From NCBI RefSeq assembly GCF_030409055.1, contig NZ_CP116619.1, forward strand, positions 3,015,628-3,079,627: 64,000 nt of DNA, in the 5' to 3' direction. The position numbers and the translations under genes were made by a program. The notes under the pieces are model-generated. The model saw only the letters and a list, made by a program, of their open reading frames with translations, searched no databases and had not been told where the DNA came from. Numbering within the stretch: the stretch's first letter is position 1; every line of letters begins with the position of its first letter. This stretch comes from Trichocoleus desertorum NBK24. Lineage in GTDB: Bacteria; Cyanobacteriota; Cyanobacteriia; FACHB-46. This document shows, piece by piece, positions 15,658 through 22,268 of this stretch.

Positions 15658-15823
15658 GTCTAAATTCTTCGCCTCTCAAACCTGGGATAGCTTTTTTTAG
15701 CAATTAATTCTCTTACATTGAATGTAGAGCCAGGTCGCAGGAGGCTAGCTCTGTCTAGCGAAGAATCTTAGTTTTTCATAATACTCTTGCTAAAGTTTAT
15801 TTTGTAGATTGGGCTTGACCACC

Positions 15824-17068
15824 GTGTCCAACGATAGGTTTCCACTGAAAACTCAATCTGACGCATCCGCATCTGTCCATCGGCCTACGCAAGCTCGTCG
15901 GCTTTTGAATTGGTGGCAATCGCTCAAGCCATTTCCTCGCTTCTTGGCGATCGCCCTAGCAGCACCGCTACTCGTGCTGAACGCTTGGGCGCTGTCGTTG
16001 ATGTTCGCGTATTTCCATTCGCTAATTGTGATTTTGGTCGGCGCGTCTTTGATCGCGTTCCTCCTCAACTACCCAGTCGGTTGGCTAGAGCGGCATGGTG
16101 CACAACGGCAACAAGCAGCAATTTTGGTCTTTCTGTTAGCGCTGTCGGTCTTGCTAGCTTTAGGTGTGACCCTAGTGCCTTTGGTGTTCAGCCAAGCCCA
16201 ACAATTGGTCAGCCGCTTACCGGAATGGATTGATTCAGGGCGACGGCAACTGCTGATGTTGAATGAGCGGGCGGAAACGTTGAACCTGCCTGTGAATTTC
16301 GATGCGTTGGTGGTGCAAATCAACGATCGCTTGAAGGGACAATTGCAGGCGATCGCAGGACAAGCGCTCAACTTGGCTGTGATTACCGTGACGAGTTTGC
16401 TGGATGGCTTGCTGACCATTGTGTTGTCGTTTTACTTGCTGCAACACAGCGATCGCCTCTGGTTTAGCTTAGTGGAGTGGCTACCCACCCCTGCTCGTCA
16501 GCCTTTTACCCAAACGCTGCGCCTCAGTTTTCAAAACTTCTTCATCGGGCAGTTAATTCTTGCCACCTGCATGGCTTCGGCCCTCATTCCTACGTTTTTG
16601 TGGCTCAAGGTGCCGTTTGGCTTGTTGTTCGGCCTCACCATTGGTTTCATGGCTTTGGTGCCTTTTGGTGGCACTGTAGGGATTGCTTTAGTGACGCTGT
16701 TGGTGACTTTGCAAAACGTGTGGTTGGGGCTGCGAGTTTTGCTAGCCTCGGTGATTGTGCAACAAATTTTGGAAAACTTGATTGCGCCTAGAATTTTAAG
16801 CAGTGTGACGGGGCTAAATCCAGTCTGGGTACTAATTTCGATTTTGGCTGGAGCTCGTGTGGGTGGGCTACTTGGTGTGATTGTGGCTGTTCCAACCGCA
16901 GTGGTGATCAAAACTGCTTTGATGGCCTTGCGATCGCCCAACTTAGCGCACGCAGTCACCCCCAACTTTGCAGCGGAAGGCTCTATCACCCCTCCTCGGA
17001 CGATCGTAGAGACAGCACCGATTCACCCGCCCGAAGACGCAACGCCCCAAGAGTTGCCCAACTCCTAG
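15824..17068 (+). CDS. AI-2E family transporter
   Basis: Polytopic inner-membrane protein of the family that includes E. coli TqsA and several ion antiporters; the true substrate in cyanobacteria is unknown. About 414 aa from GTG 15824 (TTG 15809 is also possible). After a polar N-terminus there are two adjacent helices, then a hydrophobic block (AILVFLLALSVLLALGVTLV), a soluble segment with amphipathic helices, and at least four more helices ending in the conserved PxxxxGxxxGxxL-like block (ISILAGARVGGLLGVIVAVP). The C-terminal 50 residues are Pro-rich and cytoplasmic. It converges with the serpin gene, 19 bp away. Confidence 0.88.
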   Translation: MSNDRFPLKTQSDASASVHRPTQARRLLNWWQSLKPFPRFLAIALAAPLLVLNAWALSLMFAYFHSLIVILVGASLIAFLLNYPVGWLERHGAQRQQAAILVFLLALSVLLALGVTLVPLVFSQAQQLVSRLPEWIDSGRRQLLMLNERAETLNLPVNFDALVVQINDRLKGQLQAIAGQALNLAVITVTSLLDGLLTIVLSFYLLQHSDRLWFSLVEWLPTPARQPFTQTLRLSFQNFFIGQLILATCMASALIPTFLWLKVPFGLLFGLTIGFMALVPFGGTVGIALVTLLVTLQNVWLGLRVLLASVIVQQILENLIAPRILSSVTGLNPVWVLISILAGARVGGLLGVIVAVPTAVVIKTALMALRSPNLAHAVTPNFAAEGSITPPRTIVETAPIHPPEDATPQELPNS

Positions 17069-17087: not shown

Positions 17088-18380
17088 CTAGGTCTGGGGA
17101 TTGGTGATTGAGCCCATAAACAGCAAGTTGCCCGTTTCGTTGTCTCGAATTGCGCCAAAGAAGGGGCGATCGGCTACGAATTTGAAGGGCGTTGGTGGAA
17201 ATTGAGCCGAGGTGACGATCATTTCTACCGAAGTTGCCGCCGCTGCCTCAGTCCCCACTTCATTGACTTCCACAAATGTTTTATGGCGGACTTGATCGAT
17301 CGCCAAGTTTCCTGCCCCCATCCCCGAAAAATCTGCGCGTCCCCCCTCAAAGGCCACACCCATGCCCAATGCCTTCAAAGCATTATTGAGATTGAGGTCG
17401 TACTCTAGCTTGAACTTGGGAACTTGAATCGAACCTGGCCGATTTTGGAACTTGTTCATCCACTGCTCCCAATTGGCTGCGGTCAAGTCTCGGTAAAAAG
17501 AAGACAAATTTGATTGAGATTTGGGCACAAACAGATACAGACTAAAGCGCCCTTCCCCGTAGGGCAAACTCACCGCTTGAAATTTGTCGGTTTCGTAGTA
17601 GTCATATTTTCCCGTCTGGGTCATCATGGGATGCTGTTTGCGCGTGCCATTCGCCAGCGTAAAGGGACGGGCTACCGTATCGGCTGCATCGAAGGCCTCG
17701 CTCCACTTGCCTTTGAAGTAGACCGCATTCAGCAGTAACAACGCCAAATTTGGTTGGACTCGATCCACAATTTGGTTAATCTTGCCACGGGTCTTCTCTT
17801 TGACCCAGCCGTTGATCTGGCTAACTGCCTGAGGTTTGGTGAAATCAAGTTCTGTGATCTGGGCTTTGTAAAACTGTTGGTTACGCTGCAAAAACTCCCG
17901 CTGGAGCCTTGCGCCTCTTCGAGTCCACAACGAGTTGGCGATCGCCACTTCCACGGCTGGATCTGCCTTTTGCAATCCTGAAATCAGAGCGGCATTGCTT
18001 TGATTCACATCTGCCAAGCTTAATCCTTGCAGTTCCAATGCTTTCGCCATCGCTTGCTGCGTTTCGCCTTTGGCTCCGTTGTAAGTCATGGCTAAGGCGA
18101 TCGCGACGCTAGAGGGGGAGATGAAAACATTCTTGCCAGCGTCAGCTTTCAGGGCTTGGGCAAATAGCTTCAACCCAAAGCGGGTGTTGGCAGTCACGAG
18201 CTTGGGGTTAATCGCGCCTGGTGACATTGCAGTTTTAGGGCTGGGGCGTGCTGGGGCTGAGGATTGGGGCCGCGCCATTGCTGTCTCTGTGGTCGCAAAC
18301 TGCCAACTCCCTAGCAAACCAAAAAGTAATAAGGTACTAGCGCTGAGCGTACCAACCCGTTGCAATGACCGTAATTTCAT
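17088..18380 (-). CDS. Secreted serpin family protease inhibitor
   Basis: Suicide-substrate inhibitor of serine (or cysteine) proteases. The 430-residue precursor has an N-terminal signal peptide (hydrophobic stretch about 12-30, AMA cleavage-like site near 35) and a Pro/Ser-rich spacer before a complete serpin core: NVFISPSSVAIALAMTYNGA, NSLWTRRG, INGWVKEKTRGKI, LLNAVYFKGKW, the HKTFVEVNEVGTEAAAATS shutter and hinge, and DRPFFGAIRDNETGNLLFMG at the C-terminus. The small-residue hinge GTEAAAAT fits an inhibitory serpin. Counting Gly as P15 puts P1-P1' at Thr-Ser, suggesting a target that cleaves after small residues; the count may be off by one or two. It lies 116 bp downstream of a subtilisin-like protease gene on the same strand. 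Confidence 0.93.
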   Translation of the reverse strand: MKLRSLQRVGTLSASTLLLFGLLGSWQFATTETAMARPQSSAPARPSPKTAMSPGAINPKLVTANTRFGLKLFAQALKADAGKNVFISPSSVAIALAMTYNGAKGETQQAMAKALELQGLSLADVNQSNAALISGLQKADPAVEVAIANSLWTRRGARLQREFLQRNQQFYKAQITELDFTKPQAVSQINGWVKEKTRGKINQIVDRVQPNLALLLLNAVYFKGKWSEAFDAADTVARPFTLANGTRKQHPMMTQTGKYDYYETDKFQAVSLPYGEGRFSLYLFVPKSQSNLSSFYRDLTAANWEQWMNKFQNRPGSIQVPKFKLEYDLNLNNALKALGMGVAFEGGRADFSGMGAGNLAIDQVRHKTFVEVNEVGTEAAAATSVEMIVTSAQFPPTPFKFVADRPFFGAIRDNETGNLLFMGSITNPQT

Positions 18381-18474
18381 GGGGCAGTAGGGTTTAGGGA
18401 TGAGAAACTTTCCTCTCCTAGATTAGTCAGGTCAGGATTAAAGCAGAGGGTAGTTACCTTTTTCGCAACATCTA

Positions 18475-18494
18475 TTACATGGAGTTACATGGAG
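18475..18494. repeat. 10-bp perfect tandem duplication
   Basis: TTACATGGAG occurs twice back to back, directly after the subtilase stop codon and before the serpin gene (both on the minus strand). Confidence 0.9.
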
Positions 18495-18496
18495 TC

Positions 18497-20119
18497 TTAA
18501 CGCGCTGGAACCGTCCACCAGGCTAGAGCATAGGGTTGAGTCGCTTGATTGACCTGTTGGCGATACAGAACCCGAATTTTATATCGACCCGTGGTGGGAA
18601 CTGGGTGAAAAATGTGCTCAACACTATCAACTTCACTGACCGAAGCCCAAATGCTGTCGGCTGGATCATCATCCTCAGCCCGCATCAAATAGAGATCTAG
18701 ATTATTCAAGCCGCGATCGCGAAAGCTCTCGTTGATGTCATACTCACCATTGCGGTTTTGATCCTGCAACTCTACGAAGCGATTCCAGGCTAAGGTCACA
18801 GATACAAAGCTACCTTGCTGTAAGGGCTGCGCTAGCACATAGTCCTGAAAGGAACCCTTGGGCGAGTCGGTCGCTACGCTTCGGTAATCCCAGCCGATGG
18901 GCGGTACTGGTGCTGTCGGGTTCCATTGCCCTGGTTGAAATTGTTGGTAAGCCCGGAATGTATTGAGTTGTCCTGTTCCCATCTGACGGTTGAGAGGAAT
19001 GGTGCGATCGCGGTAGGCATCCGATGTAAACCAGTCTTGCTGGTTTCGGTCAAAAATTGTGCGGCTCATACCCAGAGACCAACCATCCCCTCGGTCTTGA
19101 ACTTTATCTGCCGAGTTGAGCAAAACCGCTTTCATGACTTCATGCCGCCGAGCGTCCAATCCCCACGGATTGCTGCTGCGTCGCATGGCGTTATCCCCAA
19201 ACTCTTGTAGTAAGGCCACACTGGCTGTGGCATGGGGAGCTGCAAAACTCGTACCCGTCACTCTGGTGGTTTTGCCATCTGGGTTGAGCGCCACGATATT
19301 ACTGCCAGGTGCCGCTAAGCTAATCGCGCGACGAGGCCCAACATTGCTCTCTAGGCCCAGCGATCGCCCCTCCGCTCCAGAAATTAGCTCGTCCCCTAAG
19401 TTGGCCGCATCTATCTGAGCAAAAGGCCCACTACTGGTTACACGGCGGGTAAAAGCCACATTGATCCCATTAAAGTTATCGGTGGGAATGGAAATGCCTC
19501 CTTTTCCCTGGTTGCCTGCTACCACATACAAAACATCATGAACCCGAGTAGACCAGTCTAGACAGAGAGTTAGAAGTGCATTCCCATCGAGTCGGGCTCT
19601 AGGTCTAGGATCCTGCCGAAGCGACTCACCAAAGCTGAAATTAATCGCTCGGATATCTCCCCCATTTTGCTGCGCAATGTGCTGAGCTGACAAACACTCT
19701 TCCGCCTGACCATTGCGATTCAGTAAACCAACAGCAGACGAATACAGTCGCGCTTGGGGGGCTATGCCTCGCATCGCGGGATCGGCACTGACCATAATGC
19801 TCGCCACGTTTTGGGCATGGCTATCAACGTGGGCATTGCCTTTAGCAGGACCATCGCGGAAGAATACTCGCAAGAGCGCGATCGCCCAGCTTTGAGAAAC
19901 TGCCTTGTCCACCCCAAATTTGCCTGGACGACCAATTTCTACCTGTCCGATTGCAATCTTGTTGCCAGTGAGGTTGTAGGGGGGAGCTTGGAGCCGATAA
20001 GCATCAATGCCTAACTCGCCCAGTGAGGGAGCAGTGCCTTGGAAGGAAGCAGGCAGAACGGTAATACTGAGTCCCCCCCATAGCCCTGCTAAGCTGTTCA
20101 ACATCCAGGGCTGAGCCAC
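18497..20119 (-). CDS. Subtilisin-like (S8 family) serine peptidase
   Basis: A 540-residue secreted-type protease. The N-terminus has a moderately hydrophobic stretch that may act as a signal peptide. The catalytic Ser291 is in VTGTSFAAPHATASVALLQE, the oxyanion Asn203 in YVVAGNQGKGG and the His101 in DSHAQNVASIM. The strand that normally ends in the catalytic Asp reads KIAIGQVEIGRPG, so Glu61 occupies that position. After the catalytic domain (to about 350) comes a beta-rich region of about 170 residues (FVSVTLAWNRFVELQDQNRNGEYDINE..., ending RYKIRVLYRQQVNQATQPYA), resembling a P-domain-like extension with a possible calcium loop. The serpin gene follows on the same strand. Activity is likely given Ser, His and Asn, but the triad is unusual. 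Confidence 0.88.
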   Translation of the reverse strand: MAQPWMLNSLAGLWGGLSITVLPASFQGTAPSLGELGIDAYRLQAPPYNLTGNKIAIGQVEIGRPGKFGVDKAVSQSWAIALLRVFFRDGPAKGNAHVDSHAQNVASIMVSADPAMRGIAPQARLYSSAVGLLNRNGQAEECLSAQHIAQQNGGDIRAINFSFGESLRQDPRPRARLDGNALLTLCLDWSTRVHDVLYVVAGNQGKGGISIPTDNFNGINVAFTRRVTSSGPFAQIDAANLGDELISGAEGRSLGLESNVGPRRAISLAAPGSNIVALNPDGKTTRVTGTSFAAPHATASVALLQEFGDNAMRRSSNPWGLDARRHEVMKAVLLNSADKVQDRGDGWSLGMSRTIFDRNQQDWFTSDAYRDRTIPLNRQMGTGQLNTFRAYQQFQPGQWNPTAPVPPIGWDYRSVATDSPKGSFQDYVLAQPLQQGSFVSVTLAWNRFVELQDQNRNGEYDINESFRDRGLNNLDLYLMRAEDDDPADSIWASVSEVDSVEHIFHPVPTTGRYKIRVLYRQQVNQATQPYALAWWTVPAR

Positions 20120-20251: not shown

Positions 20252-20953
20252 ATGACGCAGCTGCAATCCGAGAAACAGATAGTTATCGCTCCATCCATCC
20301 TATCAGCCGACTTTAGCCGTTTGGGAGACGAAATTCGCGCCGTAGATGCCGCAGGAGCAGACTGGATTCACGTAGATGTTATGGACGGTCGCTTTGTTCC
20401 TAACATTACGATTGGCCCGCTGATTGTAGAAGCGATTCGCCCCGTGACTCAAAAGCCTCTGGATGTCCACCTGATGATTGTGGAACCAGAAAAATATGTC
20501 GAAGGTTTTGCTAAAGCTGGAGCCGATATCATCTCTGTGCATTGCGAGCACAATGCTTCTCCTCACCTGCATCGTACCCTCTGTCAAATTAGAGAACTCG
20601 GAAAGAAAGCGGGTGTCGTACTCAATCCCTCTACCCCATTAGAGTTGATCGACTACGTCCTGGAAGTTTGCGACCTCATTTTGATTATGAGTGTCAACCC
20701 TGGTTTTGGTGGCCAAAGCTTCATTCCTGCGGTGCTCCCCAAGATTCGCAAGCTGCGTCAAATCTGTGATGAGCGGGGTCTCGACCCTTGGATTGAAGTA
20801 GATGGTGGCCTCAAAGCGAACAACACTTGGCAAGTCCTAGAAGCGGGTGCTAACGCGATCGTGGCTGGTTCTGCGGTTTTCAACGCACCCGATTATTCAA
20901 CAGCGATCGAAGGGATTCGCAACAGCAAGCGTCCTGAGTTAGCAACTGTCTAA
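20252..20953 (+). CDS. rpe: Ribulose-phosphate 3-epimerase
   Basis: Interconverts ribulose-5-phosphate and xylulose-5-phosphate in the Calvin cycle and pentose phosphate pathway. The 233-residue TIM barrel has [15 protein letters not shown] at the N-terminus, the metal His and Asp in [26 protein letters not shown] with the second metal His, [12 protein letters not shown], and the C-terminal phosphate loop [10 protein letters not shown]...[12 protein letters not shown]. All family residues look intact. GGGAG precedes the ATG at 20252. It is transcribed alone and followed by a hairpin terminator. Confidence 0.97.
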
Positions 20954-21195: not shown

Positions 21196-21714
21196 CTATT
21201 TGTTGCGGTTAGATAGCCATTTGGCGGCAACCAATCCAAACGCAGCACCCACCATAGGATTGCTAAAGAACTTAACGATGCCTGGTTGCTCAGCCAACAC
21301 GTCGCGGAAGAGATCAGGATGATTGTGATAAGCAAAGCTTGCTAGCTTGGTCACATCATCCGCATTCATGCGGCTAGCGTGATGAGTAGACAGACCCAAC
21401 TGCTGTTCCAAAGCGCGATCGCTCAACCCACGTTCTTTGAAGTGCTTGAAGAACTCACGAGCTACATCATCCCTTTCATTTGGCTTGATTTGGGCGATCG
21501 CTTTCTGTAACTCAGGCTCCATTTGAGCAGAGGAAATCTTCTCTGGATGGAAGGAACGACCAAATAAGTGACGACGCTCATCTTTAGAAGAACGTTGAGC
21601 AAAATCGTCAAAACTTTGATAGTTCTCCAAAGAGGAGTTGTCGTCGAGTTGCTCGGTACTGCCATGAGCCAAATCGTTCATGATTTGACGCTTATATTCT
21701 TCGCTGCTAGTCAC
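21196..21714 (-). CDS. Conserved hypothetical protein, possibly stress-related
   Basis: An unrecognised 172-residue protein from GTG 21714, with AGGAG 9 bp upstream. The first half is polar and acidic. The middle (IAQIKPNERDDVAREFFKHF, then KERGLSDRALEQQLGLSTHH and onward) looks like a helical bundle with a possible helix-turn-helix-like section. The C-terminus ends in a hydrophobic stretch (NPMVGAAFGLVAAKWL) that could be a membrane anchor. It heads a run of three minus-strand genes (with a lipoprotein and CsbD) of the kind often induced by osmotic or oxidative stress; that role is inference from the CsbD neighbour. Confidence 0.75.
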   Translation of the reverse strand: MTSSEEYKRQIMNDLAHGSTEQLDDNSSLENYQSFDDFAQRSSKDERRHLFGRSFHPEKISSAQMEPELQKAIAQIKPNERDDVAREFFKHFKERGLSDRALEQQLGLSTHHASRMNADDVTKLASFAYHNHPDLFRDVLAEQPGIVKFFSNPMVGAAFGLVAAKWLSNRNK

Positions 21715-21830: not shown

Positions 21831-22268
21831 CTACTGGTACTCAACTTGCTTAGAGCCAGAATCGTAGCGAGCGGTCAAAATTAATTGTTTGTCTGGGGCA
21901 TACATCAAGACCGTTAAATCACGATTGGGTGCGCTCTGCCGGAATCCTTGTACCAAAGACTTGGCTAAGGGCCGCACTTCGTTAGGCTTGACTTGAGGGG
22001 AAATGACTACCCCTAGTTTGTTGTTGTCCCGTACATAGGCGTCTTGAATTAGGCCACGAGCTGTCTGTACAACCCAGTTACCATAATTGCCGCCTGCGGC
22101 TGTATTACCCCGTTCCAGTTGGCTATAGCCTGCTCGATTCTCAATTTGAGTTGGCTGGTTTACAGCTTGAGTGGTTGAGGATGGGCCACCACAAGCAGTC
22201 GTGATGGTAAGCACCAAAACCAAAGCTAAAGCCGTGAAAAATTTACGGCTGTGTTGAAGTAAATTCAC
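21831..22268 (-). CDS. Small lipoprotein of unknown function
   Basis: A 145-residue exported lipoprotein from GTG 22268, preceded by a strong GGGAGGAG. A hydrophobic signal peptide (about 10-25) ends in a lipobox-like ITTAC followed by GG, so the Cys at about 26 is the likely lipidation site. A Thr/Gln/Asn-rich linker leads to a compact alpha/beta domain (VVQTARGLIQDAYVRDNNKL, LAKSLVQGFRQSAPNRDLTV, LILTARYD). This resembles short sporulation/YhcN-like lipoproteins in layout, but I cannot assign a family firmly. Confidence 0.75.
   Translation of the reverse strand: MNLLQHSRKFFTALALVLVLTITTACGGPSSTTQAVNQPTQIENRAGYSQLERGNTAAGGNYGNWVVQTARGLIQDAYVRDNNKLGVVISPQVKPNEVRPLAKSLVQGFRQSAPNRDLTVLMYAPDKQLILTARYDSGSKQVEYQ

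Follow-up and report, generated by a model that had tools for sequence, protein, structure and literature searches.

We analyzed a 64,000-nucleotide stretch of the Trichocoleus desertorum NBK24 genome (hereafter, the window) that carries, on its minus strand, a gene for a subtilisin-like protease (subtilase) followed, after a gap of 116 bp, by a gene for a serpin. The open reading frames confirmed the coordinates, shared strand and spacing that an earlier note on this DNA had assigned to the two genes. Together with a gene for ribulose-phosphate 3-epimerase (rpe) and one for an AI-2E family transporter, they form a block in the order rpe, subtilase, serpin, transporter. The features are listed in Table 1.

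Table 1. Features of the subtilase–serpin region, in window coordinates.
Feature	Position	Strand	Description and evidence
AI-2E family transporter	15809..17068	+	PF01594; convergent neighbour of serpin; control, outside the proposed pair
Serpin	17088..18380	-	430 aa, signal-peptide-like N-terminus; PF00079, 403 bits; miropin nearest solved structure
Predicted P1-P1' codons, Thr390-Ser391, reactive centre loop	17208..17213	-	Count from P15 = Gly376; 68-serpin alignment
Serpin intergenic leader	18381..18496	-	Without terminator-like or sigma-70-like site
Subtilase	18497..20119	-	540 aa, starting with GTG; catalytic domain at ~26-396, then a C-terminal beta domain; without propeptide; PF00082; model; KP-43/SubHal fold
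Ser291 codon, catalytic Ser	19247..19249	-	Invariant GTSFAAP/GSSFAAP motif, 100 orthologues
Asn203 codon, oxyanion-hole Asn	19511..19513	-	Invariant in 100 orthologues
His101 codon, catalytic His	19817..19819	-	Invariant in 100 orthologues
Glu61 codon, place of catalytic Asp	19937..19939	-	Glu in 99/100 orthologues; alignment; model
rpe (ribulose-phosphate 3-epimerase by sequence)	20252..20953	+	Divergent neighbour of subtilase; control, outside the proposed pair

The serpin matched PF00079 (MEROPS family I4) over profile positions 2-370, that is, over a full-length domain, and its predicted structure is a serpin fold, with native miropin (5ncs) as the best match at 35% identity. Its N-terminus, MKLRSLQRVGTLSASTLLLFGLLGSWQFATTETAMA followed by RP, has the layout of a Sec signal when judged by eye, in agreement with the signal peptide claimed in the earlier note. 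Apart from one position, the hinge, EVNEVGTEAAAATS, has the features of an inhibitory one: P17-P9 read EVGTEAAAA, which fits the ExGTEAAAA motif of inhibitory serpins (PMC8233489), with Val at P16 where Glu, Lys or Arg is usual. Counting from P15 reproduced the Thr-Ser that had been proposed as P1-P1', and the features of the protein support an exported, inhibitory-type serpin with a small predicted P1 residue. An inhibitory hinge and a Thr-Ser loop were found in most of the 68 serpins that we aligned. By hand count, Thr-Ser occupied P1-P1' in 18 of 25 serpins linked to the subtilase and in about two-thirds of the unlinked serpins from genomes that also carry the subtilase; no shift of P1-P1' with linkage was seen among the 68. 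In many Nostocales relatives (for example, L104 and L111), the serpin has the lipobox VLGC and is a predicted lipoprotein. In the window genus, Ser takes the place of the lipobox Cys and an AxA site follows (N-terminus at 18267-18380 of the window), suggesting that the serpin is probably soluble there; its anchoring seems to have changed between this genus and the VLGC-bearing relatives.

A search of the 116-bp gap found neither a terminator-like nor a sigma-70-like site, and a search of the region for RNA families gave none. In another genome of the same genus (L176), an open reading frame is inserted between the two genes and the leader has remained beside the serpin over about 90 bp, which suggests that the serpin has a promoter region of its own. 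The inserted frame (L176:7590-8330, plus strand) encodes a hydrophobic protein of 246 aa without a Pfam match. In relatives, the gap between subtilase and serpin reaches up to 400-1700 bp. On whether the two genes share one transcript, the gap free of terminator-like sites and the leader that stays with the serpin point in different directions; a single-promoter operon is not supported, the serpin leader being conserved on its own.

The subtilase matched PF00082 with 66 bits over profile positions 48-280 only; it starts only after the Asp region, owing to an altered Asp motif that reads GQVEIGRP. Its predicted model (pLDDT 89.7) clearly has the subtilisin fold, and structure comparison retrieved many subtilisins at Z ~32-34. 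The alkaline subtilases KP-43 and SubHal (Z 34) share its two-domain fold over residues 29-536, but at ~20% identity and with an Asp-His-Ser triad. KP-43 and SubHal also have a propeptide, as subtilases generally do. At the place of the catalytic acid, 99 of 100 orthologues have Glu and one has Asp (L143:6001-7620, minus strand, motif GAVDIGRP). In a multiple alignment, Glu61 aligned with the Asp of VAVID/VAVVD in two canonical subtilases of the window genome, and in the model it is predicted to close the first core strand, the position held in subtilisin by Asp32. The placement of Glu61 comes from this alignment and the model; a pairwise profile alignment with one canonical subtilase ended before the Asp region. 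Thus Glu replaces the Asp of the Asp-His-Ser triad that marks S8 enzymes, with His and Ser invariant, and by its sequence the protein is a variant on the S8 fold and not a classical subtilase. Sedolisins (S53) likewise combine the subtilisin fold with a Glu among their catalytic residues (PMC9549277), but they use Glu-Asp-Ser, and a sedolisin identity was ruled out by the invariant catalytic His101. The invariance of His, Asn and Ser is what would be expected of an active enzyme, and from this conservation we infer that the subtilase is probably proteolytically active.

Residue 1 of mature subtilisin BPN' aligned with residue 26 of the subtilase. Across the family, about 55-64 residues precede the Glu, a length that fits a signal-like segment but not a propeptide. 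No propeptide was found, either as an inhibitor-I9 match in Pfam or as space N-terminal to the catalytic domain, and the protease would therefore lack a built-in (cis) inhibitor. A propeptide is usual for subtilases (PMC9549277); a survey names two S8 enzymes without one, of which one is ASP, whose external partner is encoded downstream (PMC9549277, PMC5638518). Two positions of the S1 pocket carry larger residues than most subtilisins have there (Pro or Ser for Gly at 210, and Glu at 165), suggesting that the subtilase may prefer a small P1 residue such as Thr. The signal peptides of the orthologues look normal, and the N-terminus of the window subtilase has no Lys or Arg, which makes its export less sure. 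The earlier note mentions neither the Glu at the catalytic Asp position nor the missing propeptide, and these oddities make the protease of greater interest than the adjacency itself.

To see how widely the gene order holds, we used a sample of 388 Cyanobacteriia genomes. The subtilase was present in 240 and a strong serpin in 142, a patchy distribution as the earlier note had stated for serpins, and 121 genomes had both. The serpin was missing from 119 of the 240 subtilase genomes, and 21 serpin genomes had no subtilase; presence of the two was correlated, with an odds ratio of 6.1 that is uncorrected for descent or genome size. By a hand count that gives a lower bound, at least 30 of the 121 genomes, from at least 8 families, carried the serpin directly downstream of the subtilase and in the same orientation. 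The note had taken rarity of the neighbourhood in relatives as evidence against a pairing, and the survey shows that such rarity does not hold. Among loci with enough flank, 23 of the 92 sampled ones and 42 of the 70 named ones showed this arrangement; the two sets partly overlap, and the named one is biased to the best matches. Because this same-strand downstream order recurs in many families, the adjacency is not due to chance. On a serpin tree built by a quick method, the label "linked" changed 9 times, compared with a mean of 20.7 for shuffled labels, and at least 4 of the 9 changes are forced by well-supported branches. This pattern would fit an old linkage with several losses, gain and loss being indistinguishable on the tree. 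Around 41 other serpin loci, an S8-like open reading frame occurred nearby in only one; that frame (L226:2-2833, minus strand) ends at the locus edge, ~2.2 kb from the unlinked serpin, and has no GTSxAP motif.

The outer genes of the block served as controls. rpe, which has no plausible role in this system, was the divergent neighbour of the subtilase at 72 of 94 and 74 of 76 loci, and thus adjoined it more often than the serpin did. The transporter gene follows the serpin in many genomes; the serpin keeps it in the absence of the subtilase in five loci, three of them in Nodularia-like genomes, and in 11 loci it follows the subtilase with no serpin between. The whole block from rpe to the transporter is therefore old, and its two outer genes show the same behaviour as the serpin. 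Beyond rpe, two proteins without a Pfam match (21196-21714 and 21831-22268, minus strand) are kept within the uvrB-rpe-subtilase block in many cyanobacteria.

Our preferred reading, held tentatively and at a little under even chances, is that an otherwise unrestrained, exported Glu-His-Ser subtilase is controlled by the small-P1 serpin exported from the next gene. The subtilase would be a probably active protease without a built-in inhibitor, and the serpin a suicide inhibitor with this neighbour as its natural target. With its narrow S1 pocket, the protease would cut the serpin after Thr390; the cleaved loop would then insert into the serpin body and trap the acyl-enzyme, so that proteolysis within the cell envelope, or immediately outside it, would be kept in check by the pair. 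Such control is plausible for a protease with no cis-inhibitor and bulkier S1-pocket residues encoded beside a small-P1 serpin, and the downstream serpin in 8 families, the correlated presence and archaeal precedents count in its favor. A bolder form, which we regard as doubtful, makes these enzymes a distinct cyanobacterial subtilase family that has no propeptide and works through a Glu-His-Ser triad, and for which a separate serpin supplies propeptide-like restraint in a self-limiting pair. Against the pairing, the serpin is a predicted lipoprotein in many relatives, so that serpin and subtilase may be placed differently from each other, and export of the window subtilase is the less certain of the two.

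Of the pairing that the earlier note had drawn from adjacency, the conserved neighbourhood, the inhibitory hinge and the small P1 stood up. The gene order itself supports pairing weakly: rpe adjoins the subtilase as well as or better than the serpin does, the serpin keeps the transporter after leaving the subtilase, a serpin is lacking in half of the genomes with the subtilase, P1-P1' is alike with or without linkage, and the leader stays with the serpin. Most of these observations also speak for an order that is inherited synteny, with the serpin as a general guard of the envelope against foreign or other own proteases and the subtilase acting independently. This account, with other targets for the serpin, is nearly as likely as serpin control of the subtilase. 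It agrees with the occurrence of each gene without the other, with the near absence of S8-like frames at other serpin loci, and with Nodularia, in which no gene is more strongly induced at 0 g/L NaCl than the serpin (PMC5853447); in Nodularia-like genomes the serpin is not beside the subtilase. It leaves unexplained the correlated presence, although descent and genome size may account for that, and the serpin's stay downstream over several families, although the position of rpe needs no explaining either.

Two further accounts are less likely than either the pairing or inherited synteny. Glu works in other serine-hydrolase triads, and one orthologue has Asp at that place; together with the invariant His, Asn and Ser, residues that an inactive enzyme could do without, this makes it unlikely that the subtilase is inactive or nearly so, binding without cutting, next to an unrelated serpin, even though the Glu is nearly universal among orthologues and S8 is defined by the Asp-His-Ser triad (PMC9549277). 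Very improbable, in our judgment, is a serpin that acts as external chaperone and temporary inhibitor. The model for this is ASP of Aeromonas sobria, a propeptide-less subtilase that needs ORF2, encoded just downstream and also its inhibitor (PMC9549277, PMC5638518), and the arrangement here is formally alike. However, ASP is kexin-like, and the downstream gene here encodes a serpin with a typical inhibitory hinge and not an ORF2-type protein; that serpin is absent from about half of the subtilase genomes, so the subtilase family can fold without one.

Adjacency of serpin and S8 genes as such has already been reported. In thaumarchaeal symbionts of sponges, predicted extracellular serpins often adjoin S08A proteases, and the authors suggested that they control the organisms' own proteases (PMC6790972); archaeal serpins have also been reported as inhibitors of endogenous subtilisin-like proteases (PMC8233489). 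The thaumarchaeal pairs are multi-copy and host-associated, whereas in these cyanobacteria, free-living and other, there is one conserved pair, with a Glu-His-Ser protease. Miropin, from Tannerella forsythia, has Thr-Ser at the counted P1-P1' of its aligned loop, as does the window serpin, and is reported to inhibit subtilisin (PMC8201313); it differs in having several cleavage sites in the loop, and the text consulted claims no link to a protease gene. For another cyanobacterial serpin, vioserpin of Gloeobacter violaceus, the same source describes a covalent complex with trypsin-like activity, and the text consulted reports no endogenous target (PMC8201313). In the open-access literature, with most subscription journals outside the scope of the search, we found no report of a cyanobacterial serpin-S8 neighbourhood or of Glu-His-Ser subtilases. 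What is new here is the propeptide-less subtilase family with Glu for Asp.

Few natural targets of bacterial serpins are known, and this conserved serpin-protease neighbourhood offers one directly testable candidate pair, which also occurs in linked form in culturable Nostoc. If borne out, a subtilisin fold with a conserved Glu-His-Ser triad would be intermediate between the Asp-His-Ser subtilases and the Glu-Asp-Ser sedolisins.

The window genome, a single contig of 5.46 Mb, encodes two serpins and four S8 proteases in all. Its second serpin (L194) lacks the N-terminal extension for export and differs in its loop. One of its canonical Asp-His-Ser subtilases (L003:892-2670, minus strand) carries a C-terminal DUF5942 domain (PF19366).
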